This document shows positions 4,325 to 30,335 of a DNA stretch of 64,000 nt, piece by piece. The position numbers and the translations under genes are program-made. Position 1 is the first letter of the stretch, and the number at the start of each line of letters is the position of its first letter. Origin of the DNA: Halomonas sp. H10-9-1 (GTDB taxonomy: Bacteria; Pseudomonadota; Gammaproteobacteria; Pseudomonadales; Halomonadaceae); the NCBI RefSeq assembly GCF_040147005.1, contig NZ_JAMSHO010000001.1, positions 1,178,001 through 1,242,000 of the forward strand, in the 5' to 3' direction. The notes beneath the pieces were generated by a model. That model searched no databases. It was not told the DNA's origin and saw only the letters and a list, made by a program, of their open reading frames with translations.

Positions 4325-4328
4325 GCCG

Positions 4329-5189: not shown

Positions 5190-5247
5190 TCGTCTCTCCT
5201 TGCAGGATTGTTCAGGCGTAAATGGCTCTGCCACAGAGGATACGATG

Positions 5248-5889: not shown

Positions 5890-6101
5890 TGGCGGAGGAT
5901 ATTGCCGAAATGCCCTCCGTTGCCGGAAGAAAACGCTGGCATCGTCCCCGGCTCCGGAAAAGCGATTGACTGGCGGATGATCGGGCGTATGATTCGCGCG
6001 CTCAGCATGGCGGGCGAGGGCGTCTCGATGCCTCCTGCCAGGCGCCTTTGCGGCGCATCTGCCACTCTTCTCTTCTACCTCCTTCCCGTGTGAGGCATGC
6101 A

Positions 6102-7511: not shown

Positions 7512-7617
7512 GGGCGTCTGCGACACGGTGCCTGAGATCGTCTGCGACCTAGGGCTAATGGCCGGCGAAAAGTAGGGAATCTACTATCGGCGTTATCATT
7601 TTCCCTGAGGTGTTTCG

Positions 7618-9411
7618 ATGACTCCCTTCGCCGCCCCCGTCCGCGACCTCCGCTTCGTGCTCGAGGAACTGCTCGAGCACGGCTCGCTCTCGCTACCCGG
7701 CTTCGAGGAGGCCAGCCCCGACCTGGTGGAGGCCGTGCTGGAGGAGGCGGCGAAGCTCGCCGGTGAGGTATGGGCGCCGCTCAATGCCAGCGGCGACCGC
7801 CAGGGGTGCGCCCGGCGCGACGATGGTGGCGTCAGCGTACCCGACGGCTTTATCGAGGCCTATCAGGCCTACGCCGAGGGTGGCTGGAACGGCATCGGCG
7901 TCTCCGAGGCGCTGGGTGGTCAGGGGCTGCCCGAGGTCGTAGCAAGCTCGGTCCAGGAGATGCTCCACGGCGCCAACATGGCGCTGGGCCTGTGCCCGAT
8001 GCTGACCGCCGGTGCCATCGAAGCGCTGGCCCACCACGGTAGCGACGAGCAGCAGGCGACCTACCTGCCGAAGCTGGTCGAGGGCACCTGGACCGGCACC
8101 ATGAACCTCACCGAGCCCCAGGCCGGCTCGGACCTCTCCAAGGTGCGCACCCGCGCCGTGCCCCAGGAGGATGGCAGCTACCGGCTCTTCGGCCAGAAGA
8201 TCTTCATTACCTGGGGCGAGCACGACGCCGCCGAGAACATCATCCACCTGGTGCTGGCGCGCAAGCCCGATGCCCCCGAGGGCAACAAGGGCATCTCGCT
8301 GTTCCTGGTGCCCAAGTTCCTGGTCAACGAGGACGGCTCGCTGGGCAGCCGCAATGACGTCACCTGCGCCTCCATCGAGCACAAGCTGGGCATCCACGGC
8401 TCGCCCACCTGCACCCTCGCCTTCGGCGAGAACGACGGCGCCACCGGCTACTTGGTGGGCGAGGAGGGGCGCGGCCTCAACCACATGTTCACCATGATGA
8501 ACGAGGCGCGCCACAAGGTGGGCATCCAGGGTATCGGCGTGGCCGAGCGCGCCTGCCAGCACGCCTTCGCCTACGCCCTGGAGCGTACCCAGGGGCGCAG
8601 CCCGCGCTCCGGTCGCAGCGACTGCACCATCAGTGACCACCTGGATGTGCGCCGCATGCTGCTCTCCATGCGGGCGCGCACCGATGCCCTGCGGGCGCTC
8701 GCCCTCTACTGCGCCGCCCAGCTCGACGTGGCCCGCCACGCCGCCGATGATGACGAGCGCAAGGCGGCCCAGGCGCGGGTCGACGTGCTGATCCCGGTGG
8801 TCAAGGCCTTCTCCACCGACCAGGCAGTGGAGATCGCCTCGCTGGGGGTTCAGGTCCACGGCGGCATGGGCTTCATCGAGGAGACCGGCGCCGCCCAACT
8901 GCTGCGCGATGCGCGAATCGCCCCGATCTACGAGGGCACCAACGGCATTCAGGCGCTGGACCTGGCGGGGCGGAAACTGCAGCGCGACGGCGGTGCGGCC
9001 CTCGAGGGCCTGATCGATAAAGTGGAAGCCACCGCCGCGGAGCTCGAGGCGAGTGCCGAACACGTCGAGCTCGGCAGGAGCCTGGCCGGGGGTGCCGCCG
9101 ACCTGCGTGCCGCCATGGTGGCGGTGCTGGAGGCGGGTGCCGACCCCGAGAGTGGCGCCGATGCCGTCCAGGCCTACGCGACTCCCTTCCTGAATCTCGC
9201 CGGTCACGTGCTGTGCGCCTGGCAGATGGGACGGGCGGCCCTCAAGGCCAGTGCCGCCCAGGCCAGCGGCAGTCAAGAGCCGTTCTACTCGGCCAAGCGC
9301 CAGAGTGCCGACTATGCTATCCGTCAGTGGCTGCCGTTGGGCCGCGCCCAGCGTGCGGTGATCGAGGCCGGCATGGCGAGCCTGGCAGCCTTCGACGCCA
9401 CCCCCCACTGA
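7618..9411 (+). CDS. Acyl-CoA dehydrogenase with C-terminal extension (DmdC/FadE-like)
   Basis: 597-residue FAD acyl-CoA dehydrogenase, oxidising acyl-CoA to 2-enoyl-CoA. It contains MNLTEPQAGSDLSKVRTRA (FAD/substrate loop), GEEGRGLNHMFTMMNEAR, VQVHGGMGFIEETGAAQ and IYEGTNGIQALDLAGRK, which holds the catalytic Glu. At about 600 residues it belongs to the long group with an extra C-terminal domain that includes 3-methylmercaptopropionyl-CoA dehydrogenases (DmdC), as opposed to the 380-residue type. It begins a same-strand series with acyl-CoA synthetase, 3-hydroxyacyl-CoA dehydrogenase and enoyl-CoA hydratase genes. The native chain may be fatty acid or methylthio-propionyl; sequence alone does not decide. 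Confidence 0.85.
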   Translation: MTPFAAPVRDLRFVLEELLEHGSLSLPGFEEASPDLVEAVLEEAAKLAGEVWAPLNASGDRQGCARRDDGGVSVPDGFIEAYQAYAEGGWNGIGVSEALGGQGLPEVVASSVQEMLHGANMALGLCPMLTAGAIEALAHHGSDEQQATYLPKLVEGTWTGTMNLTEPQAGSDLSKVRTRAVPQEDGSYRLFGQKIFITWGEHDAAENIIHLVLARKPDAPEGNKGISLFLVPKFLVNEDGSLGSRNDVTCASIEHKLGIHGSPTCTLAFGENDGATGYLVGEEGRGLNHMFTMMNEARHKVGIQGIGVAERACQHAFAYALERTQGRSPRSGRSDCTISDHLDVRRMLLSMRARTDALRALALYCAAQLDVARHAADDDERKAAQARVDVLIPVVKAFSTDQAVEIASLGVQVHGGMGFIEETGAAQLLRDARIAPIYEGTNGIQALDLAGRKLQRDGGAALEGLIDKVEATAAELEASAEHVELGRSLAGGAADLRAAMVAVLEAGADPESGADAVQAYATPFLNLAGHVLCAWQMGRAALKASAAQASGSQEPFYSAKRQSADYAIRQWLPLGRAQRAVIEAGMASLAAFDATPH

Positions 9412-13111: not shown

Positions 13112-13537
13112 TCACTTGGCGAACAGCTGGCCCATGTCCTTGAACGCCTTGAACTCCAGAGCGTTACCGCAGGGGTCGAGCAGGAACATGGTGGCCTGCT
13201 CGCCCACCTGACCCTGGAAGCGCACATAGGGTTCAATCACGAACGCGGTGCCGCGCTCACGCAGCCGCTTGGCGAGCGCCTCCCAGTCGTCCCAGCCGAG
13301 CACCACGCCGAAGTGGGGCACCGGCACGTCATGGCCGTCCACGGCGTTGGTGTGGGCATTGTCCTGGTAGGGCATCTTCGGGTGCTCGTGGATCACCAGC
13401 TGGTGGCCGAAGAAGTCGAAGTCCACCCAGTGGTCGCTGGAGCGACCCTCCTCGAGGCCGAACACCTCGCCATAGAAGGCGCGTGCCGCGGGCAGGTCAT
13501 GGACGGGAATCGCCAGGTGGAAGGGGGCAAGGCTCAT
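13112..13537 (-). CDS. VOC-family protein
   Basis: 141-residue vicinal-oxygen-chelate protein beginning [27 protein letters not shown], with a metal-ligand His in the first strand and a final module [18 protein letters not shown] with the ligand Glu. It resembles uncharacterised glyoxalase-like proteins with a [16 protein letters not shown] segment. Substrate unknown. It lies downstream of the peroxiredoxin gene on the same strand with a 46-base gap and may be co-transcribed with it. Confidence 0.82.
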
Positions 13538-13583
13538 GGCAGTCTCCTCTTGCGTGGAAGGGGCGAGGCAGGGCAGTCCTGCC

Positions 13584-14060
13584 TTACAGCTGGGCCAGCA
13601 GGGTCTCGGCGCTGCTCTGGTCGACCCCCTTCTCGTCGATGCCCAGGTATGTCACCACGCCGTCGTCGAGGAGCATGGCGAAGCGCTGGCAGCGGGTGCC
13701 CATGCCGGCGGCGCTGGCGTCCTTCTCCAGCCCCAGCGCCCGAGTGAGCTCGGCGTTGCCATCGGCCAGCATGGTGATGGCCTGAGCATTCTGGTCCCGC
13801 TGCCAGGCGCCCATCACGAAGGCGTCGTTCACCGCCAGGCAGGCGATGGCGTCGACCCCCTTGGCGAAGATCTTGTCGGCATTGACCACGAAGCCCGGCA
13901 TGTGGGTGTTGGAGCAGCCGGGAGTGAAGGCGCCGGGTACCGCGAACAGCACCACCTTGCGGCCGGCGAAGAAGTTGCCGGTGCTGAGGTCCTCGGGGCC
14001 ATCGGGGCCGTTGGTCTTGATGGTGACGTCGGGGAACCGGTCGCCGGTGGCAATCGTCAT
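13584..14060 (-). CDS. Peroxiredoxin (Prx5/AhpE-like, atypical 2-Cys or 1-Cys)
   Basis: 158-residue thiol peroxidase. The peroxidatic motif [16 protein letters not shown] places the reactive cysteine at Cys49 in the TPxCS context characteristic of Prx5 enzymes. [16 protein letters not shown] is the family's conserved mid segment. A further cysteine ([13 protein letters not shown]) may or may not resolve. It reduces hydroperoxides in the cytoplasm, usually with glutathione/glutaredoxin. The start at 14060 follows a GGAAG site on its strand. It is divergent from the alcohol dehydrogenase gene. Confidence 0.9.
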
Positions 14061-14247
14061 GGGGTACTTCCTTCTTCTGATGAAAGGGTGGGATACCGCG
14101 ACTCGCCAGTCTGCCTCGACCAGGCGGAGAACACCAAACACCGCCTTTCACGCTTGGCCGGCCACTCCTTGATGTCTGTCATGGTGGAATCGCGTTTGCC
14201 TGCTATAGCTGTAGGGGTCACCCTTCCTCGCCATCCAGGAGTCCGCC

Positions 14248-15327
14248 ATGCCCGCCATGATGAAAGCCGCCGTCTTCGTCGAGCCCGGCCGCATTGAGAT
14301 CGATGACCGCCCGATCCCCGACATCGGCCCCAACGACGCCCTGATCCGGGTGACCACCACCACCATCTGCGGCACTGACGTGCATATCCTCAAGGGCGAG
14401 TACCCGGTGGAGAAGGGGCTCATCGTGGGCCACGAGCCGGTGGGGGTGATCGAGAAGCTCGGGGCCAACGTCCAGGGCTATCGGGAGGGTCAGCGAGTGA
14501 TCGCCGGCGCCATATGCCCGAGCTTCACCTCCTACGCCTGCCAGGACGGCTGCAGCTCCCAGGACGGCGGCCACCACGCCCACGGCTACAAGCCCATGGG
14601 TGGCTGGCGCTTCGGCAATACCATCGACGGTGCCCAGGCCGAGTACCTGCGGGTGCCGGATGCCCAGGCCAACCTCTCTCCGGTGCCCGACGGTCTCACC
14701 GATGACCAGGTGCTGATGTGCCCGGACATCATGTCCACCGGCTTCGCCGGGGCGGAGTCGGCCAACATCAAGATCGGCGACAGCGTGGCGGTGTTCGCCC
14801 AGGGCCCCATCGGCCTGTGCGCCACCGCCGGCGCCAGGCTGCGCGGCGCGGGGCTGATCATCGCCGTGGATGGCGTCGACGAGCGCCTCGAGATGGCCAG
14901 GAAGATGGGTGCCGACGTCACCCTCAACTTCCGCCAGGTGGACGTGGTGGACGAGATCCGCAAGCTCACCGGCGGACGCGGGGTGGACGCCTCCATCGAG
15001 GCGCTGGGGCTGCAGCAGACCTTCGAGCAGGCGCTGCGGGTCATCAAGCCCGGCGGCACCCTGTCGAGCCTCGGGGTCTACTCCGAGAACCTGAGCATCC
15101 CGCTGGACGCCTTCTGCGCGGGCCTGGGTGATCACCGCATCGTCACTTCGCTCTGCCCCGGCGGCAAGGAGCGCATGCGCCGGCTGATGCAAATCATCGA
15201 CAGCGGCCGCCTGGATCTCGGCCCCATGGTCACCCACCGCTATCCGCTGGAGAAGATCGTCGACGCCTACGACCTCTTCTCCCACCAGCGCGACGGCGTC
15301 CTCAAGATCGCCCTGGAGGTCTCTTGA
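14248..15327 (+). CDS. Zn-dependent NAD(P) alcohol dehydrogenase (secondary-ADH type)
   Basis: 359-residue medium-chain dehydrogenase. The catalytic zinc ligands are Cys41 (ICGTDVH), His62 (GHEPVG) and Asp160 (LMCPDIMSTGF), the Cys-His-Asp set of Clostridium beijerinckii and Thermoanaerobacter secondary alcohol dehydrogenases. The usual four-cysteine structural zinc lobe is absent or altered, as in those enzymes; AICPSFTSYACQDGCSSQ stands in its place. The C-terminal SLCPGGKERMRRLM also matches that group. It probably interconverts secondary alcohols and ketones or aldehydes; direction and substrate are unknown. RBS AGGAG precedes the ATG. A terminator follows. Confidence 0.87.
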   Translation: MPAMMKAAVFVEPGRIEIDDRPIPDIGPNDALIRVTTTTICGTDVHILKGEYPVEKGLIVGHEPVGVIEKLGANVQGYREGQRVIAGAICPSFTSYACQDGCSSQDGGHHAHGYKPMGGWRFGNTIDGAQAEYLRVPDAQANLSPVPDGLTDDQVLMCPDIMSTGFAGAESANIKIGDSVAVFAQGPIGLCATAGARLRGAGLIIAVDGVDERLEMARKMGADVTLNFRQVDVVDEIRKLTGGRGVDASIEALGLQQTFEQALRVIKPGGTLSSLGVYSENLSIPLDAFCAGLGDHRIVTSLCPGGKERMRRLMQIIDSGRLDLGPMVTHRYPLEKIVDAYDLFSHQRDGVLKIALEVS

Positions 15328-15343
15328 GGTTCGCTACTCCCCG

Positions 15344-15375
15344 GCCGGGCGGAATGTTCCGCCCGGCAATCCTTT
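15344..15375 (+). terminator. Terminator of the alcohol dehydrogenase gene
   Basis: A perfect 11-bp inverted repeat (GCCGGGCGGAA) with almost no loop, followed by AATCCTTTAT, 16 bases after the stop. It marks the end of the GC-rich core block. Confidence 0.7.
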
Positions 15376-15883
15376 ATTCCCTGTCGGCAATGTCTCACAG
15401 GCCATATGGTGAATCGCTGACAGGGTGACTGGCGGATTGCGTAATCTGGACCAACGTTGACGGGTGATGCCGCAAATATGGGCATTATCGGTTAGGCTGC
15501 TGGCTAATGGTCCTTTGGGTAATGAGGTGCAGGGGCTTATGCCGCAGTCAGCGTCTTCCCTCGCGTCGTCGTCATGTTGCCTGTAGGAGCTCGATTTATC
15601 GGGCGAAGAGCCGCTATCGACCCATAGCTGCCATTAAGATGAAAAGCGCGCGCCTATGGACCGCCTCGCCGCTACTGGATTCCATGCTTTGGCAAATCGG
15701 AGCCGGAAGCAGTGATGAAGCTACTATCGATGAGGGGTTAAAGCGGACCGATGGCCAGCAGCCAATGCACATACCATCATGAGATGATCAATTTTTATCT
15801 CTTCCTGGTCAGTCGCAAAAATAGCGCTAAGTTACACTGAAGAATTGGTGCGAGATCATGGTATGACAGTCACGGAGAGCTGT
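15376..15883 (+). other. Gene-poor left boundary of the accessory island
   Basis: About 500 bases with falling GC and no convincing gene. A 91-codon open frame (15507-15782) has no ribosome-binding site and low-complexity Arg/Ser content and was not accepted. The stretch holds a REP-like palindromic element at 15581-15612 and the upstream region of the membrane protein gene. No tRNA or integrase remnant was recognised, so the mode of island insertion is not visible. Confidence 0.55.
15581..15612 (+). repeat. REP-like extragenic palindrome
   Basis: The motif CTGTAGGAGCTCGATTTATC and following GGGCGAAG resembles the GTAGGAGC-type REP elements of Pseudomonas and relatives, with a small CGAT-TT-ATCG palindrome at its centre. 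Only one copy is in this window, so repetition elsewhere in the genome is inferred. Confidence 0.35.
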
Positions 15884-16630
15884 ATGGAAGTTTTCAGCCA
15901 ATTCGACACGTACAGCCTGAAGGCACGTGTCTTCCCTGCTCTAATATCGGGCCTACCTACACTCGTTTTATTGTTCATGCTTGTACCTTGGGATCGCCTC
16001 GCTCTCTCCCAAGTGATCGCAGCCAGCATGGGCCTAGTGCTTATTTTTGCATTCGCCGACATGGCTAGGCACAAAGGGAAAAAGCTCCAAGAGCGTCTAG
16101 GAACGGGCGAAACGCCGAACCAATGGCACCGGGGAAACCCGGATGTTCCGGAAGCTTCGAAGGATCGGTACCGAAGCTTCATCGCCGAGCAGTTGGCGCT
16201 AACCGCACCTACACCCGAGGATGAGCAAAATTTTCCGAAGCGTTCCACCGATTTTTACCGGTCTGCTAACGCCTGGTTGCGCGAAGAAACACGCGATCAC
16301 ACTGCATACCCACTTCTCTTTGCTGAAAACATTACGTACGGTTTCCGCCGAAATCTCTCAGGCCTCAAGCCAATCGCTCTGGTGTGCAATCTGTTGGTAC
16401 TGCTTCTCTGTGTTGGAATATTGTACTTAGAACCAAGTTACTTTGTCGCGCTTCCAAATATGGGGGAAAAAATCTATCTGACCGTAGCCGCCGTATTTCT
16501 GCACTCTGCTTACTTAATGACCGCAGTTAACGAATCGGCAGTGAAAGAGGCCTCTCGAGCCTATGGCCGACAACTAATCCTGAGTTGTGAAGCACTGATT
16601 CGCTCCCACAAATCCAACATGACCAAGTAA
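15884..16630 (+). CDS. Four-helix membrane protein of unknown function, island-encoded
   Basis: 248-residue protein in the AT-rich island, not assigned to a named family. It has two close transmembrane helices near the N-terminus (about residues 15-35 and 38-60), a polar cytoplasmic-looking middle of about 100 residues, and a second helix pair (about 161-182 and 197-216) before a basic tail. The ATG at 15884 is preceded by GGAGAG at 15874-15879; the reading frame also contains earlier TTG and ATG codons without such a site. It is convergent with the E2-E1-JAB operon and separated from it by a decayed phospholipase gene. Membrane proteins of this layout occur as effectors beside CD-NTase or ubiquitin-like defence genes, so a pore or stress role is possible but unproven. 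Confidence 0.7.
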   Translation: MEVFSQFDTYSLKARVFPALISGLPTLVLLFMLVPWDRLALSQVIAASMGLVLIFAFADMARHKGKKLQERLGTGETPNQWHRGNPDVPEASKDRYRSFIAEQLALTAPTPEDEQNFPKRSTDFYRSANAWLREETRDHTAYPLLFAENITYGFRRNLSGLKPIALVCNLLVLLLCVGILYLEPSYFVALPNMGEKIYLTVAAVFLHSAYLMTAVNESAVKEASRAYGRQLILSCEALIRSHKSNMTK

Positions 16631-16785
16631 GGTGCGCCATGGCCGTACGCGATCACACGATGAGCTGCGGCCGATTTTGCCGTAGGTTCTTCAGCAAAGA
16701 GCCCTTGAAGGTCTTGCTGAACACTTTGCGCATGATGGTCTTCCGAATAACATTACGCAGAAACGGAACGGAGTTCGGCCAGCAC

Positions 16786-17135
16786 TCACTCGGCGTCCAC
16801 TTCCCCAAATTTGCTGGCCGACACGCCAAATGAAGACAGCCGACCGCTCGGCGACCAGCGCACTTAGGTAGGCCACAGCTTTAACGCCGTCTGAGGGAGT
16901 CAGCGCCCTTCTGAGAGCGGGCTTGGCGAATCTACAACGAGGGAGTTCCCGCGCCCTGGCCTCGAATGCCTCATAGTCTCCTGGGTAGCTTCAGCAAAGG
17001 CCCGCCAGTACACTTCCACTCGAAACGGCGTTGATCGTTAAAATCCACTGAAGTACCCCCAGGTCGCAACGCACGCAGGCAGCCCAAATGGAAGGTCATA
17101 GCTCTGGAACCACCGGCTGACAAAGCCAATGTATC
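16786..17135 (-). pseudogene. Decayed patatin-like phospholipase
   Basis: Reading the minus strand through several frames gives a protein-like mosaic. At 17135-17030 it encodes DTLALSAGGSRAMTFHLG, the oxyanion-hole motif of bacterial patatin-like phospholipases (family consensus LALSGGGSRA.. FHLGCLRAL). It then jumps, with the GxSxG and catalytic Asp regions missing, to a C-terminal portion in shifting frames: VYWRAFAEATQE, DYEAFEARARELP, LTPSDGVKAVAYLSALVAE, FGVSASKFGEVDAE and a stop at 16786. A large internal deletion and at least three frameshifts are needed. It lies directly downstream of the E2-E1-JAB gene on the same strand, where a CBASS-type effector gene would be plausible. A further protein-like tail continues to 16653. 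Confidence 0.6.
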
Positions 17136-17174
17136 TTATCGGTATCCTGAGCCTAAGAGGCTAATAAAGCTTCA

Positions 17175-19400
17175 TTAATGGCCATGCGTTACCACTCCTT
17201 CGACCGCCCCACGCTCAGTCCAACCAGCTCGAATCCAGGAATCACGTTCACCGCAAATGGCCATAATGTACGGTGAGCCTACCGATCCCAAATGAGTTTC
17301 GAGGTGGGCAAATACCCCTTCGTCATCATCACTGGGTCTGGCAGGCACGGCTCCAGGGTGGCTATGCCATTCTCCGATATAATGCAAACGCCCCGCTGAG
17401 CTAGCTGCCAATGCTTCAATCCGAGGCTTGAGATCTTCCTTGCCACGAATGAAAAAAGTCGGGGCTTGCTTGCTGTCGGGAGGAGCCGTAAGCGCCGCAA
17501 CGACATGAGCCACATTACGAACCAGGTCAAAGGTGCCTACAAGTACACCTCCTGTTTCGTTTCTGCCCGCTTTACGACGAAGCTCCCGCATCGTGCTGAC
17601 GACGTCTTCCGTAATAGATACCCGCATAGAGCCTACTTGATAGCGATGTACCTGTTGCACAGGGATAATCACTGCTTGGACAGCTCCCGTCTCAGGTTCC
17701 AACCTCCAGACCTTAAAGCATGCGTCGTCGCTCTCGATTAGCTGTGCCACTTGCCCGGCAGCAAGACCACAGAGCGTTTGAAGCTGCCATGGCGGAAGCG
17801 GACGTGACAGGTCTTGACAGGCATTGGCATAGCGAATTTTATCCAACCGTGCAGCAGACAAATGTCCGTTCAACTGTGGCTCTGTGGCCACAGACCAGAA
17901 GTACTGAGCTTCTATTTCATCAACTTTGACTGCACGTGATTTATTCTCTGCGAGTACAACCAGGTCGGAACCATCGGGCCCGAAGAAGGCACTGGCTCCC
18001 CGCCTTACAGGCTGATCAGACAGCCAACCTAATACCGCAGGTGACGCACTGAAATCGATAGCAATCTCAGCTTTTTCTACAGCAGCATCCAGCACAGGTG
18101 CCTGCTCCCCAGGTGCGAAAACATTGGCAGGAATCGCTGTATTCCCGCCTTCTTCAAATACCTGATCAAGCTCAATCTCCAATACCGAAGCCTTCGGAAA
18201 GCCTATGGAGCCATTTTTCTGCACTTGGCGAACTGTGTTATGTGGCAGAGTAATGTCCTCGTCAACCACCGCCCATGGTCCTATACCGGAGCGAGTCGCC
18301 ATCATGGTCACGTTCGACCCGATAGCACCGGCACCGATTGCTAGTAAAGGGGTATCTGTTTTATGCGCTGTGCCCGCAAAGTGGCGCGCTGAGGCACGAT
18401 CCAGCCTTTGTACAACTCGCCAAGGGAGCATGTGAACAGATGCAAGATTTGCATTACTGACATTCCCAAAAAGCTTTTCTGTGGTCAGTCCCGTCTTCTG
18501 TTCAGTAATCGTGACGTTCAGCTGTTCTCCAAGCTCAGCTAGGCTTTCGCCAAGGGTATAACACCAAACTTCCGGCTGCTCATCAGGCCCTTCCTCCACA
18601 CGACGTTTTGGTACCGTAATAATCAACATGGGTTGACGGTTACGCGCGTTTCTCAACTGCTCGGGCGAAAGCAACCACTGCACTAAGCCTTCAATCAAAT
18701 TGAAACCAAAGCCTAAACATAAGCGCTGTAGGGCTCCTAAATCGAAGGGCGTTCTAGCAAGACCGCGATGCAGTTGACTAGGAAGTTCAGGCGTATAGAT
18801 GGCGAAATTGTGGTTAGTGACTTCTTTTTCAGGCTTCTCTTTAGACATGCCAAGAGTGATAAGCCCGTTATGCTCGAAGGCCAAACTGGTGTACCAAGGA
18901 CCTTGCATTTCACCAGACGGGATGATCAGCGTATGTGGGCTTGAGAAGATCAACGGCTCCAAGAACTGATCATCAGCATGAGCGGTGCCAGCGGCCATTA
19001 AAGAGAACCAGGTACGCATTCTTTCGATAAGTGCCTGACCTGTGAGATTGGTCGCCAAATCCGACCACGCCTCCTCCCATATACACAGGGCTAACCCGCC
19101 CGCCTCACGATCCAGGTTGGTATGGACCATACCGACCGGAAAGTCCTCACGCCTCGACAGCACTCGCGGATGACAAGCGTCGTCGTTCGACATGAAAATG
19201 AGCCGAACTGGCTCTCTAGGTCGAATCGGTACTTTGCGACGCTGCTCCAGCTCGATCTCAAGCTCGATATCTAAAACATCAAATGTGTCGTCTCGGCTGA
19301 TGCTGGTTACCGTCGCATAGGGATGATTCGGAGACTCGACCAGATACCGGACAACCGAGCGAGCCAACTGAGATCGGAGTGCTTCGAACGCCTCACCCAT
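17175..19400 (-). CDS. E2-E1-JAB triple-domain ubiquitin-like conjugation protein
   Basis: 741-residue fusion of three ubiquitin-pathway modules. (1) Residues about 1-160: E2/UBC-like domain with the candidate catalytic Cys106 in GLALCIWEEAW, then WFSLMAAGTAHADDQFLEP. (2) About 345-565: ThiF/E1 adenylating domain with GAGAIGS (356-362), Asp380 in VVDEDITLPHNTVRQ, Arg391, and candidate E1 thiol cysteines Cys528 or Cys544. (3) About 593-741: JAB/JAMM isopeptidase with Glu615 (NETGG) and the zinc motif H679-S-H681-P and S690-D-D-D693. All catalytic residues are kept. The ATG at 19400 has AGGAG 7 bases upstream, lying inside the end of the MBL gene; the gap between the genes is 2 bases. The composition is clearly AT-richer than the host. 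It resembles Cap2/Cap3 chemistry of CBASS fused into one chain. Confidence 0.9.
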   Translation of the reverse strand: MGEAFEALRSQLARSVVRYLVESPNHPYATVTSISRDDTFDVLDIELEIELEQRRKVPIRPREPVRLIFMSNDDACHPRVLSRREDFPVGMVHTNLDREAGGLALCIWEEAWSDLATNLTGQALIERMRTWFSLMAAGTAHADDQFLEPLIFSSPHTLIIPSGEMQGPWYTSLAFEHNGLITLGMSKEKPEKEVTNHNFAIYTPELPSQLHRGLARTPFDLGALQRLCLGFGFNLIEGLVQWLLSPEQLRNARNRQPMLIITVPKRRVEEGPDEQPEVWCYTLGESLAELGEQLNVTITEQKTGLTTEKLFGNVSNANLASVHMLPWRVVQRLDRASARHFAGTAHKTDTPLLAIGAGAIGSNVTMMATRSGIGPWAVVDEDITLPHNTVRQVQKNGSIGFPKASVLEIELDQVFEEGGNTAIPANVFAPGEQAPVLDAAVEKAEIAIDFSASPAVLGWLSDQPVRRGASAFFGPDGSDLVVLAENKSRAVKVDEIEAQYFWSVATEPQLNGHLSAARLDKIRYANACQDLSRPLPPWQLQTLCGLAAGQVAQLIESDDACFKVWRLEPETGAVQAVIIPVQQVHRYQVGSMRVSITEDVVSTMRELRRKAGRNETGGVLVGTFDLVRNVAHVVAALTAPPDSKQAPTFFIRGKEDLKPRIEALAASSAGRLHYIGEWHSHPGAVPARPSDDDEGVFAHLETHLGSVGSPYIMAICGERDSWIRAGWTERGAVEGVVTHGH

Positions 19401-19402
19401 TA

Positions 19403-20506
19403 TCAAACTCCTGCGCGCGGTGCAGCAGTAGTGATGACAACCTTGGAGGTCTGCTTCTGGATCTTGTAACCATTGCTCTTTATCTCGATTACCAATGGCT
19501 CTGGTTTAGTTTTCGTGGGGTGCTCCATCGAAACGACCCACTCGCCGTTCAGCTGTTTGGCAACATCCTTGTAGTAAGCAGCTGCCTGCCGATGTGGAGG
19601 CTGCCTGTCCTCATCATCAGTTGGAATGACCTTGGAGGTGCTGACCAGCAGCCCACCGGGCTGACCAGCCACTTCGTACAACCACTTGGATGTATCCGTA
19701 GGCTTGGTCTTGTTGTCACCCTTCTCAGCAGAAAGAGATTTGTAGCTACAGTGATGCGGGATGTTGTTGATATCCCATTCGAGTCGAGACTCTCGACCGT
19801 GAAACTTGGTCACCTCAACAATATCGTCGATGACCTCATGAGTGACGTCAGCCGACAAAATCATCTTCGTCTGATGACCATCCACCTCAAACGCAGCCTG
19901 CATAAACAGGGCGTCGTTATTCCGGACGCGCACCACATCATCTTCATCACGTTTACCGAAAGGCGAATGCACGAAAAACTCCACCCCGTCGTGACCCTGG
20001 TTGAACTCCGGGCAAAGGGTGCCGGCGTCGCTAATCAGGTTTCGGCGCTTAGCTGGATCGATGTCGCGCTCGGTGAGAAAATCATTCAGCTCTTCAGGCC
20101 GGGAAAACACCCGTACCCCTTCGCCGTTAATAAAGCGGTGCCGTGCTTCCGCGCGAAGGGTGCGTGCTTGGCCTTTGATCCCCTTCTCCAGCACAGCATG
20201 GGCAGGAACCCAGAGCGTTTTGATCTTGATCCGATCATCATCCTGGTACTTTTCAGCGTGCTCCAGCCAAAAAATTTCCTTGGCGCGGTGACAATGGTCA
20301 CGGTCCAGATGAGTAAACGCAACAACGTCTATGACCTTCTCATCCCCGAGAATATCGCGTAGCTCTTTCTCAAGGTCGCAACGCCTGTCATCAGGGTCAT
20401 CGGGGTTATGCATATCCGCATAGTCGAAGAGGATTCGACGACCGTTGGCAAGCTCAATCAGGCAGGTATCGGCGTTACCGATAGGGAAAAAACGAACAAT
20501 ATGCAT
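19403..20506 (-). CDS. MBL-fold (ComEC-like) metallohydrolase of the E2-E1-JAB operon
   Basis: 367-residue metallo-beta-lactamase-fold protein, opening MHIVRFFPIGNADTCLIEL. The metal motif HxDxDH is present as H66-L-D68-R-D70-H71 (AFTHLDRDHCH). LSADVTHEV (Asp220) and IPHHCSYKSL (His251) supply further ligands, so the fold should bind two metals. It resembles the hydrolase domain of ComEC-type and related nuclease or phosphodiesterase proteins; no membrane segment is present. The C-terminus is a flexible tail ending TTAAPRAGV. It is first in a two-gene operon and coupled to the E2-E1-JAB gene. MBL-fold genes beside such triple modules were noted in comparative work on prokaryotic ubiquitin-like systems. 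Substrate unknown. Confidence 0.88.
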   Translation of the reverse strand: MHIVRFFPIGNADTCLIELANGRRILFDYADMHNPDDPDDRRCDLEKELRDILGDEKVIDVVAFTHLDRDHCHRAKEIFWLEHAEKYQDDDRIKIKTLWVPAHAVLEKGIKGQARTLRAEARHRFINGEGVRVFSRPEELNDFLTERDIDPAKRRNLISDAGTLCPEFNQGHDGVEFFVHSPFGKRDEDDVVRVRNNDALFMQAAFEVDGHQTKMILSADVTHEVIDDIVEVTKFHGRESRLEWDINNIPHHCSYKSLSAEKGDNKTKPTDTSKWLYEVAGQPGGLLVSTSKVIPTDDEDRQPPHRQAAAYYKDVAKQLNGEWVVSMEHPTKTKPEPLVIEIKSNGYKIQKQTSKVVITTAAPRAGV

Positions 20507-20902
20507 GCTAAGTCCCTTAGGGTGGGTCGTCGTTAGACTGGCTGAAAGCCTTTACTCATCAAAATACCAGCATACTACATGCTGTAATGCAAAATCAACA
20601 TAGGTACTATATGAGCCATTTCGCTGAAAATTTGCCTATATGAGAAAGAACTGCTTTAACATGCTTATGGGTAATCTTGCTAAGCGTGTAAAGTCCGAAT
20701 GGGCTCACCCTACCCGGTAGCGCATCCGGATTGCTGCAATCAGATCGGTTGAATCAACTGACCGCTTTTGGCCGAAACCGGTCCTCCGACATGTTGGTCA
20801 ACAGCGACACCAGCCCCGCGTCATGCGGGATGCGGACGATAGTGATGGCTTCGGCGCAACTTCTGGTACACTCCCGCCATCCCTGAAGTAGACGGAGACA
20901 CG
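20507..20902 (-). other. AT-rich intergenic region upstream of the MBL/E2-E1-JAB operon
   Basis: Nearly 400 bases without a credible gene. The part next to the MBL gene is AT-rich and should hold its promoter, including an inverted repeat at 20568-20584. The far part (about 20700-20800) is more mixed and contains a GACCG...CGGTC imperfect palindrome near 20760-20784 that resembles widespread intergenic remnants. It is the right boundary of the low-GC island; host-like GC returns at the next gene. Confidence 0.5.
20568..20584 (-). promoter_or_regulatory. Inverted repeat, candidate operator for the MBL/E2-E1-JAB operon
   Basis: CAGCAT-ACTAC-ATGCTG, 6-bp arms with a 5-bp centre, about 65 bases upstream of the MBL start. 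On the minus strand it overlaps a possible TTGATT...TAGTAT promoter with a short 15-base spacer. No dedicated regulator gene is seen nearby. Confidence 0.35.
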
Positions 20903-21253
20903 ATGGAAACGGAATTGAGCGAGTTCGAGCGGCAGATGCGCCGCGACATCAACGCCTTCATGGACAACGCGCAGGAAACACGCCGCAAGGCGGCTACCGC
21001 GCCCCCCGAGTGGCCCAGGGAAGCCGGTGAAGAGCCCAAGGCCAAGGCGCCGCGCAGCAAGCCCGAAGGCGCACCCAAGACCGGCCATCTGGTGAAGCTG
21101 GCCGTACGCACCAAGCAGCTCGAGATGGACACCGTGTTCGAGCATGTCTCCTCCAGCATCTCCAAGGTCGAGGCCCAGTTGGAAGCCGAGAAGGCCGCGC
21201 GCAAGGCCGGCTATCCCATCATCGGTTATGTGATCGAAACCAGCCGGCTGTAA
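20903..21253 (+). CDS. Hypothetical protein, 116 residues
   Basis: Small highly charged protein (METELSEFERQMRRD...) with a predicted helical N-terminus, a Lys/Pro/Ala-rich linker (about residues 30-60) and a second helical part with alternating Glu and Lys ending KAGYPIIGYVIETSRL. There is no membrane segment and no known motif. It has host-like GC, a GGAGA ribosome-binding site and normal codon use, so it is probably a real gene of the core genome. It precedes the MOSC gene by 51 bases. I do not recognise the family. Confidence 0.7.
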   Translation: METELSEFERQMRRDINAFMDNAQETRRKAATAPPEWPREAGEEPKAKAPRSKPEGAPKTGHLVKLAVRTKQLEMDTVFEHVSSSISKVEAQLEAEKAARKAGYPIIGYVIETSRL

Positions 21254-21304
21254 TCCCCCCTCGGCTGGGATAGGCTTTGGGCATCGCCCTGCCAGGAGCC
21301 CGCC

Positions 21305-22153
21305 GTGAAGATCACCCAGCTCAACATCTATCCGGTCAAGTCGCTGGGCGGCATCGCCCTGGACACAGCCGAGCTGACCGCCGAGGGTCTCGCCTGGGAT
21401 CGCCGCTGGATGGTGGTGGACGACGTGGGGCGTTTCGTGACCCAGCGTCAGCTGCCGGCCATGGCACGCATCCGTGTGCATCTCGAAGCCGATGCCCTGG
21501 TGCTCAGCCACCCCGAGGCGGCGCCGCTGCGCGTGCCGCTGGCGGTGGGGGCGCTTCCCCTCCTCCCGGTGTACGTGTGGGAGGACCGTTGCGAGGCCCT
21601 GGAGGAGGGCGTCGAGGCACGCGACTGGCTGGGCGACGTGCTTGGCGACTGGCGCGGCAGCGGCCTGCGCCTGGTGCGTTTCGCCCCCGAACAGCGTCGT
21701 GCCGTCGAGCCCCACTACCTGGCGCCCGGCGAGCGGGCCCATACCGGCTTCGCCGACGGCTATCCGCTGCTGGTGGTGAGCGAGGGCTCGCTTGACGAGG
21801 TGAACCGCCGGCTGGCCGCCAAGGGGCTCGATCCGGTGCCCATGAGCCGTTTCCGGCCGAGCCTGGTGGTCGATGACGCCGCCCCCTTCGCCGAGGATGG
21901 CTGGGACACCCTGGCCGCCGCTGACAGCAGCTGGCGCCTGGGGCTGCGCAAGCCCTGCCAGCGCTGCAAGATCACCACCGTGGACCAGCACAGCGGGGAG
22001 ATCGCCGTGCCCGGCGAGCCGCTGCGCACCCTGGTGGAGATGAGTACCCGCGCCGCTCCCGGCGGCTACTTCGGCCAGAACGCCATCGTCCTCGAGGGTG
22101 AAGGGACGAGGCTTTCGGTAGGTGATGGCATCACCATGAGGACACACTCATGA
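21305..22153 (+). CDS. MOSC domain protein (YcbX-like)
   Basis: 282-residue MOSC-domain protein. The N-terminal beta-barrel begins MKITQLNIYPVKSLGGIAL and contains GLAWDRRWMVVDDVGRF. The MOSC core has the conserved cysteine in KPCQRCKITTVDQ. Such proteins bind molybdenum cofactor and can reduce N-hydroxylated compounds (YcbX in E. coli, there with an added 2Fe-2S domain). That C-terminal ferredoxin domain is missing here, as in many relatives. Its stop overlaps the start of the GHKL ATPase gene (ATGA at 22150-22153), so the two are translationally coupled. Confidence 0.85.
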   Translation: MKITQLNIYPVKSLGGIALDTAELTAEGLAWDRRWMVVDDVGRFVTQRQLPAMARIRVHLEADALVLSHPEAAPLRVPLAVGALPLLPVYVWEDRCEALEEGVEARDWLGDVLGDWRGSGLRLVRFAPEQRRAVEPHYLAPGERAHTGFADGYPLLVVSEGSLDEVNRRLAAKGLDPVPMSRFRPSLVVDDAAPFAEDGWDTLAAADSSWRLGLRKPCQRCKITTVDQHSGEIAVPGEPLRTLVEMSTRAAPGGYFGQNAIVLEGEGTRLSVGDGITMRTHS

Positions 22154-24048
22154 CCATTGGCGCCATTCCCGTCGACCAGCGGGTTATCGGCATCGACTCG
22201 CGCCGTTTCGCCTCCATCGAGAAGGCCCTGGTGGAGCTGATCACCAACAGCGACGACAGCTACGGGCGCCTCGCGCGCGCGGGCGAGAGGGGGAGGGAAG
22301 AGGACCCGAGCGGCGAGATCCGTATCGAGTACGAGCGCCACCAGAACGGTGCCCTGCTCAAGGTGACCGACCAGGCGGAGGGCATGTCGTTCGAGCGTGC
22401 CGCCAGCATCCTCACCTACGGCGGTGCCCACAGCCCGCTCTCCCGCGGCGAGGGGGAGGGGCGCGGCTTCTTCGGCCGGGGCCTCAAGCAGGCGATCTAC
22501 GGCCTCGGCCACGGCTGGCTGGAGACCCTCCATGAGGGCCGCCACACCCGCATCGAGCTGTTCCGTGACGCCAATGGCGGCTACCTCTTCGATGACGGTG
22601 AAGGCGACCGCGAGGCCACCGAAGGCGACCAGCGTCGGCTCGGTATCCATCGCAACGGCACACGGGTGACCATCGTGGTGGAGAACCCCCAGGTCGCCAT
22701 CACCCAGTTCCATACCCTGGTGCAGGCACTGGCCGACAACGTCTACCTGCGCGATATCCTCGAGCGGCGCGAGATGAGTCTGGCGCACCTGAGGCGCGGC
22801 CGGGTGGTGGAGGAGAGTGGGCGCGTCTGCTTCCAGGAGCCGCCGTCGCTGCTGCTGGTCGGGCCGGAGCAGGCGAGCAGTTTCGTCTTCCAGCAGCAGG
22901 AGTTCCCCTTCACCCTGACCCTCAAGCGCTCCCGCGAGGCCGAACTGACCCAGCATGGCGACGACCGCACCAACGGCCTGGTGGTGTTCTCCGGCATGGC
23001 GGCCCTGGACTGCCAGCTGTTCGAGTTCGAGAACCAGGTGGGCACCGAGTACCTGTTCGGCAGCGTGCGCTGCCCGGCGCTGCTCGAGAAACTCGCCGAG
23101 GGCGAGGCGATCATCAGCGACGAGCGCGAGGGGCTCAATCCCCGCAACGCCTTCGTCAAGGACTTCTCCCGCGCCGTCAGCCGCCTGGTTGCGCCTCACG
23201 TGCTCGCCGAGCAGGAGAAGCTCAAGCATCTGGCCCGGGCGACCACCTCGCAGCGCACCGACCATATGATCGAGCACCTGCTGCAGCGCATGAGCCGCGC
23301 GGCGGTGCAGGACCTGGGGCTTACGCCACCGCTGGCGAGCGAGCCCGCCGAGGCGCCTGCGCTCGACACCGCCCTGCGCTTCACCACCCCCTTCTACTAC
23401 CGCCGGCCGGGCCACTCCTTCCATGTCACGCTGCTGGTGGACCGCGCGCAGCTTCCCCAGGGGGCGGAACTTGCCATCGACTATGTGCTGCCCGACTCGC
23501 TCGCCATCGACGCCACTCCCACGCAGGTGAGGGTGGAGGAGCTCGGCGAGGAGGGGCGCCTCACCTGGACCCTGAGCGGCGAGGAGGAGGGGGCCCGGGG
23601 CGAGATCAACGTGCGTGCCGGCGCCTACTGGGCCTGGTGCGAGATCGTGCTGGCCCGCCACGCCTCCCACCACGGCCATGGCGGCGTGCCCCATGCGCCG
23701 CGTCGCGGCCCGTCGCGAGATCACGGCGAGGCGATGTTCCTGGGCTACGAATTCCGCAACCTCGAGGAGACCCTGGACCGTGCCGTCTACAGCCCCGAGG
23801 AGCGCAAGATCCTGATCAACACCGGGGCCCCGACGGTACAGCTCTACGTGGATGGCCGTGGGCACTTCCGTGACTCCGCCAGGCTGCTGTTGGCCGAGCT
23901 CTTCCTGGAGGTGATCGCCGAGGAACTGGCCACGCGCACCCTGGAGAAATCGGGGCGCCAGGGCAGTGTCGCCGACTTTCACGCCACCAAACGGGCGATC
24001 GTCCGGCGCTATGGAAGCGAGATCCATCGCTCCTTCCTGAGCGTCTGA
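22150..24048 (+). CDS. GHKL-superfamily ATPase of unknown role
   Basis: 632-residue protein with an N-terminal Hsp90/MutL/histidine-kinase-type ATP-binding domain. The N-box is ALVELITNSDDS (Glu29, Asn33, Asp35), the G1-like box is TDQAEGM (Asp74), and the lid is GRGFFGRGLKQA (about 105-115). No kinase His or sensor domain is present, so it is not a histidine kinase. The rest (about 220-632) is mostly soluble and unassigned, with a long acidic middle and a helical end. The overall plan recalls MORC- or MutL-like ATPases that appear near restriction and defence genes. The ATGA overlap with the MOSC gene is unusual. GC is host-like. Confidence 0.75.
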   Translation: MTIGAIPVDQRVIGIDSRRFASIEKALVELITNSDDSYGRLARAGERGREEDPSGEIRIEYERHQNGALLKVTDQAEGMSFERAASILTYGGAHSPLSRGEGEGRGFFGRGLKQAIYGLGHGWLETLHEGRHTRIELFRDANGGYLFDDGEGDREATEGDQRRLGIHRNGTRVTIVVENPQVAITQFHTLVQALADNVYLRDILERREMSLAHLRRGRVVEESGRVCFQEPPSLLLVGPEQASSFVFQQQEFPFTLTLKRSREAELTQHGDDRTNGLVVFSGMAALDCQLFEFENQVGTEYLFGSVRCPALLEKLAEGEAIISDEREGLNPRNAFVKDFSRAVSRLVAPHVLAEQEKLKHLARATTSQRTDHMIEHLLQRMSRAAVQDLGLTPPLASEPAEAPALDTALRFTTPFYYRRPGHSFHVTLLVDRAQLPQGAELAIDYVLPDSLAIDATPTQVRVEELGEEGRLTWTLSGEEEGARGEINVRAGAYWAWCEIVLARHASHHGHGGVPHAPRRGPSRDHGEAMFLGYEFRNLEETLDRAVYSPEERKILINTGAPTVQLYVDGRGHFRDSARLLLAELFLEVIAEELATRTLEKSGRQGSVADFHATKRAIVRRYGSEIHRSFLSV

Positions 24049-27054: not shown

Positions 27055-29181
27055 TTGGCTCAACTCGAACATATCCAGGCGCTGGAGAAGCGCCTGTGGA
27101 GCGCCGCGGACAACTTGCGCGCCAACTCGAACTACGCCAGCAATGAATACTTCCTGCCGGTGATGGGCCTGGTCTTCCTGCGCCACGCCTACAGCCGCTA
27201 CCTGGCGGTGAAGGACGATATCCAGGCCAGCCTGCCGTCGCGGGGTGGCAAGACCCGCGAGATCACCAAAGAGGATTTCTCCCAGCGCAGCGCCATCTAC
27301 CTGCGCCCGGAGGCGCAGTTCGACCACCTGGTGAGCCTGCCGGACAGCGCCGATCGCGCCCGCGCCATCATCGACGCCATGGAGGCGATCGAGAACGACT
27401 ACACCTCGCTCAAGGGTGTGCTGCCCAAGAGCGAATACCAGGAGCTCGACAACGAGGTGCTGGGCCAGCTGCTGCGTACCCTCAACCCCGACGAGCTCAA
27501 GCGGGTGAAGGGCGACGTCTTCGGCCGCATCTACGAGTACTTCCTCACCCAGTTCGCCGACCAGGGCGCCCACGACGGCGGCGAGTTCTTCACCCCGGTG
27601 TCGCTGGTCTCACTGATCGCCCATGTGCTCGACCCAGAGCGCGGCACCGTACTGGATCCGGCCTGCGGCTCCGGCGGCATGTTCGTGCAGAGCGCGCGTA
27701 CCGTGGAGGAGCATGGCGACAACCCTAGCGAGCGGCTCACCTTCCGCGGCCTGGAGAAGAACGCCACCACCGTGCGACTGGCCAAGATGAACCTGGCGGT
27801 TCATGGCCTGGAGGGCGATATCCAGCGCGCCATCACCTACTACGAGGACCCCCACGAGCTGGTCGGCAAGGCCGACTACGTGATGGCCAACCCGCCGTTC
27901 AACGTCGACGAGATCGATGCCGAGAAGATCAAGGCCGACCCGCGCCTGCCCTTCGGCTTGCCGGGGGTGAATAAGAAGGGCAAGGTCTCCAACGGCAACT
28001 ATGTCTGGATCAGCTACTTCTACAGCTACCTGAGCGAGCGCGGCAGAGCGGGCTTCGTGATGTCCTCCCAGGCCTCCAGCGCAGGTCGAGACGAGGCGCG
28101 GCTGCGCCAGGCGCTGGTGGAGACCGGCGACGTCGACGCCATGATCGGCATCCGCGGCAACTTCTTCTATACGCGCAGCGTGCCCTGCGAGCTGTGGTTC
28201 CTGAACCGCGCCAAGCCTGCCGAGCATCGCGACAAGGTGCTGATGATCGACGCCCGCCAGATCTATCGCCAGGTGACGCGCAAGATCTACGACTTCAGCC
28301 CCGAACAGCAGCAGAACCTGCAGGCCATCGTCTGGCTCTACCGTGGCGAGACCGAACGCTACCTGGCGCTGGTGGAAGCGTATGGCCGGCGCACCCTGGC
28401 CGAGGCCGCCGGTTGCTTCGAGCGGCAGGATGAGGAGGGCAGCACCGACGCCCCCCTGGCCGACTTCGACACGGCTCTGGATGCCCTGGGCGAGAGCGCC
28501 TCGCCCTTCCTCGATAGCCTCAACGACGCCTCTCCCTCGCTGGCGCCGCTCGCGGAGGCCCGCGAGGAGCTGGCCCAGGCGCGTCGCGCTTTTGCTACCG
28601 ATGTCGCGGCCTTCCGCGAGACGCTGGCCGCCGAGCAAGCAGAATGGCGCGGGCCGTCATTGACCAACGTTGCCCTCAAGCGGGCCGTCGACCGCCTGAC
28701 GCCCCTGGCCGAGGCGAGCCGCGATCTGGTCAGGCAGACGGACCTGCTCTACAAGCTGGCCTGCCGGGTCATCGACAGCTGCGAGCAGGAGTATGCCGCC
28801 AAGAAGAGCCGCCTGTGGCCCAGCCGCGAGATCAACCGTGCCCGCAAGACCGCCGACGCGGCGCGCCATGAACTGGTCGAGAAGCTCAAGGCCGTGCGCT
28901 ATGTCTGGAAGCAGGCCCACTGGCTCACCGAACGCTTCCCGGAGGCCAAGCTGCGCGACGTGGAGGGCCTGGTCAAGCTGGTCAGCATCGAGGAGATCGC
29001 CGCCAACGACTGGAGCCTGACCCCCGGCCGCTATGTGGGTGTCGCCCCGGAAGAGGAGGACGAGGACTTCGATTTCGAGGAGGCCCTGCGCGAGATCCAT
29101 GTGGAACTCGCTGATCTCGACGCCGAGGCGACCAGGCTGGCTGCGAAGATACGCCGCAACTTCGAGGAGTTGGGGGTATGA
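27055..29181 (+). CDS. hsdM: Type I restriction-modification methyltransferase subunit HsdM
   Basis: 708-residue N6-adenine DNA methyltransferase. The N-terminal HsdM helical domain starts AQLEHIQALEKRLW. SAM motif I is LDPACGSGGMFVQS (about 199-212), the catalytic motif IV is NPPF (about 279-282). The protein is about 200 residues longer than the classical HsdM; the extra C-terminus (about 470-650) is rich in Ala, Arg and Glu and likely coiled. The start is a TTG at 27055 with GGAGCGGG upstream. Its last four bases overlap hsdS (ATGA), giving a coupled operon. It forms the modification complex with HsdS. Confidence 0.92.
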   Translation: MAQLEHIQALEKRLWSAADNLRANSNYASNEYFLPVMGLVFLRHAYSRYLAVKDDIQASLPSRGGKTREITKEDFSQRSAIYLRPEAQFDHLVSLPDSADRARAIIDAMEAIENDYTSLKGVLPKSEYQELDNEVLGQLLRTLNPDELKRVKGDVFGRIYEYFLTQFADQGAHDGGEFFTPVSLVSLIAHVLDPERGTVLDPACGSGGMFVQSARTVEEHGDNPSERLTFRGLEKNATTVRLAKMNLAVHGLEGDIQRAITYYEDPHELVGKADYVMANPPFNVDEIDAEKIKADPRLPFGLPGVNKKGKVSNGNYVWISYFYSYLSERGRAGFVMSSQASSAGRDEARLRQALVETGDVDAMIGIRGNFFYTRSVPCELWFLNRAKPAEHRDKVLMIDARQIYRQVTRKIYDFSPEQQQNLQAIVWLYRGETERYLALVEAYGRRTLAEAAGCFERQDEEGSTDAPLADFDTALDALGESASPFLDSLNDASPSLAPLAEAREELAQARRAFATDVAAFRETLAAEQAEWRGPSLTNVALKRAVDRLTPLAEASRDLVRQTDLLYKLACRVIDSCEQEYAAKKSRLWPSREINRARKTADAARHELVEKLKAVRYVWKQAHWLTERFPEAKLRDVEGLVKLVSIEEIAANDWSLTPGRYVGVAPEEEDEDFDFEEALREIHVELADLDAEATRLAAKIRRNFEELGV

Positions 29182-30335
29182 GCTGGGCCACCATGAAGCT
29201 TGGCGATGCAATAACACTCAAACGCGGCCATGATCTGCCAAGCTCTCAACGAAAGGAGGGTGCGGTTCCGGTGGTGTCATCATCAGGCATTACCGGCTAT
29301 CACACAGAGGCGAAAGCCACTGGGCCTGGGGTTGTGACCGGGCGCTATGGGACCTTGGGGGAGGTTTTCTATGTCGAGGGCGACTACTGGCCTCTAAATA
29401 CCTCGCTGTATGTCTGTGACTTCAAAGGCAATAGCCCGAGATACGTGGCTTACCTTCTTAGGAATTTGCTGAGGAATTTCCAAAGCGAGAAGGCGGCCGT
29501 TCCGGGAGTCAATAGAAACGCCCTGCATCAGCTTGAAATCAGGATGCCATGCGTGAGCCTTCAGCAAGAAATTGAAGGAGTTTTGTCCTGCTACGATGAC
29601 CTCATCGATAACAATCAGCGCCGCATCCAGCTCCTCGAGGAATCGGCTCGATTGCTCTACAAGGAGTGGTTCGTCCATCTACGTTTCCCCGGCCATGAGC
29701 ACGTCAAGGTCACTAATGGCGTGCCGGAGGGGTGGTCAAGAAGAAAGCTTGTTGATGTGACTTCGAAAATTGGCAGCGGTGCAACCCCGAAAGGAGGGGC
29801 TTCGGCCTACCAGTCGGAAGGCATTGCCTTGATCAGAAGTCAGAATGTCTATGACTATCGTTTTGACTCTAGTGGACTCGCCTTTATCAATGATGAGCAG
29901 GCTGATAGGCTCTCCAACGTTGAAGTTAACGGCTCCGATGTGTTGCTGAATATCACTGGGGCATCGGTAGGGCGATGTTGCTTGGCCCCCGATTATCACC
30001 TTCCTGCCCGCGTCAATCAGCATGTGATGATCATTCGATCCGATTCTGAAAAGTGCGGGCCACACTACCTGCTGCATTTCATTAACAGCTATCGTGAGAA
30101 GCAGAGAATCCTTGCCTCGGCGGGTGCAGGTGGCTCCACTCGCGAGGCCTTGACCAAGAGCTTTGTACAGAACCTTAAGATTACGCTTCCTTCAAGAACT
30201 CTGATGGAGCAGTTCGAGGAATTTTCCAAAGACTGTTTCGAGCAGAAGCAAAAGCTGGAAATGCAGAATATTCGCCTCGCCAAAGCCCGCGATCTGCTGC
30301 TGCCCAAACTGATGAGCGGAGAGCTGGCCGCATGA
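29178..30335 (+). CDS. hsdS: Type I restriction-modification specificity subunit HsdS
   Basis: 385-residue specificity subunit with two target-recognition domains. The first opens WATMKLGDAITLKRGHDLP. The second opens GWSRRKLVDVTSKIGSGATP. Each is followed by a conserved helical spacer: DLIDNNQRRIQLLEESARLL after the first and LAKARDLLLPKLMSGEL at the end. The recognition sequence cannot be read from the protein. The base composition is visibly lower in GC than in hsdM and hsdR, as expected for horizontally swapped specificity genes. It overlaps hsdM and the AlbA_2 gene by four bases each. Confidence 0.92.
   Translation: MSWATMKLGDAITLKRGHDLPSSQRKEGAVPVVSSSGITGYHTEAKATGPGVVTGRYGTLGEVFYVEGDYWPLNTSLYVCDFKGNSPRYVAYLLRNLLRNFQSEKAAVPGVNRNALHQLEIRMPCVSLQQEIEGVLSCYDDLIDNNQRRIQLLEESARLLYKEWFVHLRFPGHEHVKVTNGVPEGWSRRKLVDVTSKIGSGATPKGGASAYQSEGIALIRSQNVYDYRFDSSGLAFINDEQADRLSNVEVNGSDVLLNITGASVGRCCLAPDYHLPARVNQHVMIIRSDSEKCGPHYLLHFINSYREKQRILASAGAGGSTREALTKSFVQNLKITLPSRTLMEQFEEFSKDCFEQKQKLEMQNIRLAKARDLLLPKLMSGELAA

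Follow-up and report, generated by a model that had tools for sequence, protein, structure and literature searches.

The window analysed here is a stretch of 64,000 nucleotides from Halomonas sp. H10-9-1 (contig NZ_JAMSHO010000001.1, positions 1,178,001 to 1,242,000 of the forward strand). Within it lies a 5.5-kb insert of low GC content (15329..20852, assigned to no strand) with three recognisable genes: one for a metallo-beta-lactamase (MBL)-fold hydrolase, one for a single polypeptide that joins E2, E1 and JAB domains (the triple module), and one for a protein with four predicted transmembrane (TM) segments. As judged from its sequence, the locus is an antiphage-type operon with ubiquitin-style tagging enzymes and without recognisable ubiquitin. 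The argument developed below is that the hydrolase itself may serve as the tag.

The insert is delimited by base composition and by the empty sites of relatives. In the relative G084, the flanks at 13500-15328 and 20853-22127 are only 10 bases apart (L111), and in G056 the same flanks are separated by 116 bases (L113); the other three of the five relatives give a DNA match to the right flank only. As the flanks nearly adjoin in G084 and G056, the segment 15329-20852 was gained or lost as one piece. Its ends carry no repeats beyond imperfect short pairs. An initial annotation, made from the sequence, had described the MBL and triple-module genes as lying 2 bases apart in a low-GC island. The GC profile agrees (0.51-0.57, against about 0.66-0.70 in the surroundings), and the spacing holds for one choice of start: the two minus-strand open reading frames (ORFs), 17175-19406 and 19403-20506, overlap when the longest form of the triple module is taken, as its TTG start overlaps the MBL stop codon; the ATG at 19400 gives a 741-aa product and leaves 2 bases between the MBL stop and the ATG.

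The triple module (17175..19400, minus strand) is Cap2-Cap3-like. It scores 610.1 bits against the NCBIfam model NF058523 (cut-off 320), and its Pfam matches, Prok-E2_A (122.3 bits, cut-off 25), Prok-JAB (49 bits) and ThiF (31 bits), all exceed their cut-offs. The residues listed in the initial annotation are all present in the 741-aa numbering: C106, the GAGAIGS motif (GAGAIG at 356), D380, R391, E615, H679, H681 and D693. Alignment A2 (59 sequences, that of the window included) leaves these invariant, in the motif G356, G358 and G361, together with H93, N388, K403 and C528; the 48 sequences of alignment A4 likewise share all of them but K403 and D693, which are conserved in at least 90%. C106 (19083..19085, minus strand) is the predicted E2 catalytic cysteine. 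C528 (17817..17819, minus strand), absent from the initial annotation, is likely the E1 catalytic cysteine; it aligns by eye with a cysteine of a Cap2-like protein of the same genome. Since both cysteines are invariant in the 59 sequences, the chemistry of conjugation seems to have been kept. The best match in the PDB is Cap2 (7to3, E 2.4e-17), over profile positions 214-460 only; the 'Peptidase' chain 9ild matches the JAB part in profile comparison, and neither match spans the E2 part.

The MBL gene (19403..20506, minus strand; 367 aa) lies directly upstream, and its product likewise passes the cut-off of its model, NF058524 (399.7 bits, cut-off 220). The metal-site motif H66-x-D68-x-D70-H71 (20294..20311, minus strand) is complemented elsewhere by D220, H251, H252 and S254; all are invariant in alignment A1 (19 sequences), and in alignment A3 (62 sequences) D68 is conserved in at least 90%, the other metal-site residues being invariant. 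The closest solved relatives are the beta-lactamase domains of ComEC (9ic4, E 2.6e-7; 30bt, E 9e-5), matched over profile positions 3-78. A domain of this kind has endo- and exonuclease activity in vitro (PMC12455585, in excerpt). The ComEC-type residues H-x-D-x-D-H, H-H-x-S and a distal Asp are all found in the MBL and, by motif spacing, appear to match D600, D602, H603, H725 and S728 of ComEC. Because these metal nuclease residues are kept, the MBL is probably active on a phosphodiester, whether in nucleic acid or in a nucleotide signal.

This pair of genes belongs, on sequence criteria, to a known system. NCBIfam assigns both proteins to an 'anti-phage 6A-MBL system' through its equivalog models '6A-MBL_cap2_3' and '6A-MBL_enzyme', and an MBL gene with an E2-E1-JAB gene makes up row 6a in Table 1 of Iyer et al. 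2006 (PMC1779556, in excerpt): a two-gene core, the E2-E1-JAB part a single polypeptide, the same as that of the window. The antiphage label comes from the name of the NCBIfam model; a literature search found no source paper for the name '6A-MBL', with subscription papers mostly beyond its reach. What is new here is the inferred mechanism, in which the MBL is both modifier and core enzyme and a separate membrane protein the effector; the excerpts of Iyer et al. 2006 contain neither a modifier role for the MBL tail nor the third gene, and the idea of the tail may already be in print. Where E1/E2/JAB operons lack a ubiquitin-like gene, the 2006 survey gave no answer as to what is conjugated. In the MBL branch, sequence evidence points to one residue, Gly366.

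That residue belongs to a short tail, P363-R364-A365-G366, followed by the single residue V367 (19406..19420, minus strand). Tail counts were taken from sequence ends, because automatic alignments place the tails unevenly; the homologues listed are the best 120 of 3433 matches, the best 120 of 3948 matches and those of 28 loci. In the close set (121 listed sequences, at least 63% identical to that of the window), conservation is 0.99 for each of P363, R364 and A365 and 1.00 for G366; the linker before them, 47% Ala/Ser/Thr, is variable (leading residue 0.17-0.72 at positions 352-360). Over the 253 listed MBLs a tail, mostly PRAG with 0-13 further residues, is present in 252: 244 were recognised by script and eight by eye (PKAG, or PRAG with longer extensions), and by the script count Gly is the very last residue in 121. 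Greedy clustering of 247 MBLs at 60% identity gave 24 representatives, all of which retain the terminal Gly with at most five residues after it; their tails include PRAG, PTRAG, AHRVG, PMPHG, FKHG and STYG, and the triple module was seen adjoining in 16, the other eight being known as proteins only. All six IMG/VR loci, which fall within the 253, have the tail. Left out of the tail counts were L011 (APRAGA, readable only in a shifted frame), L053, L055 (ending LSHGSD, the downstream sequence absent from the record) and L006-L010, whose tails fit and which stand outside the 253. The MBL and the triple module also co-diverge (r 0.64; 0 of 10000 Mantel permutations; 21 loci; organism kinship ignored).

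Seventeen related MBLs served as controls: 14 that had no triple module over the stretch examined, found beside the four-TM family or matched by the models Avs1a and RTasMBL, and three second MBLs beside a triple module (duplicates of one control MBL, in L078, L079, L081, L085, L089 and L092, were counted once). Five of the 17 have any Gly within five residues of their C-terminus, against 24 of the 24 representatives (Fisher 8e-7). The form [AHVYQ]G occurs in none of the controls and in every representative (Fisher 7e-12; the rule was set after the motif had been seen).

The reason for attaching weight to such a tail is its resemblance to that of the cGAS enzyme of type II CBASS (cyclic oligonucleotide-based antiphage signalling system), which is conjugated by Cap2; on this ground the MBL is probably a conjugated modifier, matured and released by JAB. 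In CBASS, conservation of a Gly/Ala at the C-terminus of cGAS is confined to operons with Cap2 and Cap3, and deleting this residue abolishes conjugation and phenocopies the loss of Cap2; the residue is needed for full defence (PMC10097602, in excerpt). The correspondence extends further. Type II CBASS, like the window, has an E2-E1 fusion and a JAB; as in the window's family, a C-terminal Gly is conserved in an enzyme that is no ubiquitin, here the MBL; and as in 6A-MBL loci, a patatin or membrane gene adjoins. It differs in having a CD-NTase (cGAS/DncV-like nucleotidyltransferase) where the window has the MBL; profile scans find no CD-NTase among the insert's three genes. In the window, moreover, the Cap2 and Cap3 equivalents are fused in one chain, and in its family extra residues often follow the tail Gly. 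The Bil system (BilABCD) shares E1, E2 and JAB, and its modifier is matured by JAB (PMC11354881, in excerpt); unlike the window, it keeps its four genes separate and has an ISG15-like beta-grasp protein dedicated to the role of modifier.

Two claims follow, of slightly different reach. The ubiquitin-like modifier is probably an active MBL-fold hydrolase, activated at its C-terminal Gly and conjugated by E2-E1; it would be a second kind of non-beta-grasp enzyme in this role, besides the CD-NTases. It is reasonably likely that the whole is a mobile antiphage system of the 6A-MBL type whose mode of action is that of type II CBASS, the MBL standing in for the CD-NTase. From gene content, the conservation of motifs and tail, the insertion as one unit and the pattern of neighbours, we infer a chemistry, a target, a trigger and an antiphage outcome. 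That is, the JAB domain would trim the residue or residues after Gly366; the E1 domain would adenylate Gly366 and then take the MBL on C528; the MBL would pass to C106 of the E2 domain and be joined to lysines of targets, perhaps the MBL itself, phage proteins or membrane proteins; this joining would license or anchor the MBL, and JAB would reverse it; the MBL would cleave a phosphodiester; the four-TM protein, or elsewhere a patatin phospholipase, would attack the membrane as effector. If this is true, the MBL is a second enzyme-as-modifier, and 'enzyme as tag' is suggested as a general design. The 6A-MBL system would then fully parallel type II CBASS: an MBL core, reversible conjugation as an add-on, and exchangeable membrane effectors. 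The initial annotation had proposed an antiphage or stress system in which one polypeptide conjugates and removes while an MBL replaces or supplements the effector. Its first part agrees with the two NCBIfam matches, of 610 and 400 bits; simple replacement of the effector is not supported: the Gly tail puts the MBL at the CD-NTase position, as the protein to be conjugated, and a separate membrane or patatin gene is the likelier effector.

Several points weigh on the other side. The tail is not universal: P0117 (336 aa) is without it, and L053 (3968-5281), an actinobacterial MBL that passes the model cut-off (265 against 220 bits), ends in a long C-terminal extension instead of such a tail; its downstream neighbour falls outside the record. 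The listed homologues are the best matches of larger sets, and G366, conserved in at least 90% in alignments A1 and A5, is not listed for A3, where uneven placing of the tails plays a part. The control MBLs are distant, scoring no more than 37 bits against the profile, and L060 not above 15; their lack of a tail may therefore reflect subfamily history. When profiles of the E2 and wing regions were compared with six Cap2-type proteins, neither gave a significant match; the comparison did place the H93-C106 region in register, at 0.5% probability, and the E2 assignment of residues 1-160 is drawn from Pfam Prok-E2_A and the invariant H93 and C106. Lastly, the four-TM gene of the window lies on the strand opposite to the MBL and triple module, and four of the 28 loci surveyed (L044, L049, L058, L068) have no membrane, patatin or second-MBL gene adjoining the triple module.

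Other accounts of the tail can be given. In one, the E2-E1-JAB protein docks on the tail or cleaves it without ever activating it, the MBL being a nuclease effector restrained by the triple module. The ComEC-type nuclease residues suit such a role, as does the lack of the tail form in the 17 controls, 14 of them lacking a triple module over the stretch examined; the variable extensions behind the Gly suggest trimming. This account nonetheless fits poorly with E1 and E2 cysteines that are invariant in all 59 sequences, and at least 121 of the 253 tails already end at Gly and need no trimming; we regard it as unlikely.

Another account, named as a possibility by Iyer et al. 2006 (PMC1779556, in excerpt), takes the modifier from the host: such systems could use an endogenous ThiS/MoaD protein or the operon's own ubiquitin-like protein. 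A ubiquitin-like gene within the insert was sought and the idea dropped, as no ubiquitin-like Pfam match was found among the nine products scanned (the three genes and six further ORFs, all of at least 80 aa), and this absence itself suits a housekeeping ThiS/MoaD-like beta-grasp modifier with the MBL merely as effector. That scheme leaves the terminal Gly behind a variable linker, present in 24 of 24 representatives, unexplained; in the sister type 6b (CBASS), moreover, an enzyme encoded by the operon turned out to be the modifier (PMC10097602, in excerpt). Borrowing of a host modifier is accordingly quite improbable.

A ribosome-binding site of the downstream gene might also have produced the terminal RAG incidentally, since the window has an AGGAG just ahead of the ATG that overlaps with GCA-GGA-G; this is refuted at the codon level and is hardly credible, because all four Gly codons occur (GGT 11, GGG 8, GGC 6 and GGA 6 in 31 loci), the next start lies -5 to 110 bases away in the 22 loci measured, and the P and R of the tail are conserved too. 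Just as implausible is a sulfur-carrier or cofactor-metabolism operon, for which the ThiF/MoeB-type fold of the E1 domain could speak: it was dropped, as no metabolic gene recurs in the operon across the 28 loci surveyed, both JAB and E2 are present, and occurrence is sporadic and often plasmid-borne.

The four-TM protein (261 aa; 15845..16630, plus strand), which the initial annotation did not mention, lies in the same insert. Its homologues stand directly after the triple module in eight of the 28 loci (window, L006, L011, L059, L061, L062, L065, L066), and a patatin-like phospholipase gene is found downstream in eight others (L009, L010 and L057 by Pfam; L043, L045, L046 and L050 by annotation; L107 by eye), behind a transposase-like gene in L107 and behind a small membrane protein in L043. 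Other small proteins with hydrophobic segments occur in five (L047, L048, L051, L056, L067), and a second MBL in three (L052, L070, L108), the L052 copy, the only one scanned, matching PADLOC PDC-M48B. The 28 loci are partly non-independent; omitted from them were L007 (a near-copy of L006), L008 (at a contig end), L014 and L015 (the L107 and L108 loci), L069 (like L052), L054 (broken), L053, L055, L060, L063 and L064 (no triple module), and L071 and L072. Thirteen columns are invariant across the 15 members of the four-TM family (alignment A6); the protein of the window has no match in Pfam, PADLOC or NCBIfam, and its homologue in L059 none in Pfam or PADLOC. CapV is a patatin and a CBASS effector, and membrane proteins also serve as CBASS effectors. 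CapV is named in PMC10097602 (in excerpt). The pattern of neighbours suggests that the four-TM protein, and elsewhere the patatin, is probably a membrane-attacking effector.

Of 275 genomes of the window's family, three (its own included) exceed the NF058523 cut-off, which makes the pattern sporadic, and a class-wide search for the four-TM protein found it in 2 of 274 genomes, again with the window's own among them. Plasmids are a frequent home. Among 72,556 plasmid records, 321 match the triple module (some perhaps CBASS Cap2) and 244 the MBL; 159 of the 321 and 136 of the 244 are predicted to be conjugative. One sequence variant is present in 30 of 5,426 complete E. coli genomes. The MBL had no match in the phage collection.

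Related arrangements are on record. In some loci the triple module is accompanied by another MBL that lacks the [AHVYQ]G tail (L052 7480-8550, L070 8535-9620, L090 1447-2511, L108 5047-6117); L052, L090 and L108 also hold a member of the four-TM family. Units of an MBL and a four-TM gene, with no conjugation enzymes over the stretch examined, occur in L060, L063, L064, L086 and L091, plasmids of Microvirga, Rhodococcus and Acinetobacter among them, and are possibly a minimal form of the system. Their MBLs are related to that of the window, and the three scanned, of L060, L063 and L091, match PDC-M48B, the MBL type of the PADLOC candidate PDC-M48; the four-TM protein of L060 has no PADLOC match. 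Unlike the MBL of the window, those of the five loci are without the [AHVYQ]G tail.

About 1.3 Mb away in the window's genome is a type II CBASS-like locus, complete by eye (L106; C1:2527000-2537000, 3936-8165), with genes for a patatin, a CD-NTase ending RTKAG, a Cap2-like protein and a JAB. Its E2 matches Prok-E2_B, where that of the window matches Prok-E2_A. Two E1-E2-JAB systems in one genome raise the question of cross-talk.

A regulator with a WYL domain is annotated divergent from the MBL gene, or from its place, in 9 of 24 plasmid regions (L044, L049-L052, L054, L058, L059, L065), and none was recognised in the window's insert. On the E. coli plasmid pVR50B (L054 5167-8708), an IS3 element interrupts the triple module. 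Outside the insert, the window encodes a 632-aa protein (22150-24048) with a weak match to HATPase_c_3, under the Pfam cut-off, and no match in PADLOC. About 6 kb from the insert is a type I restriction-modification locus (27055-34557), in which an extra gene without a PADLOC match (30332-31318) lies between the S and R subunit genes; the M, S and R subunits are all recognised by PADLOC.

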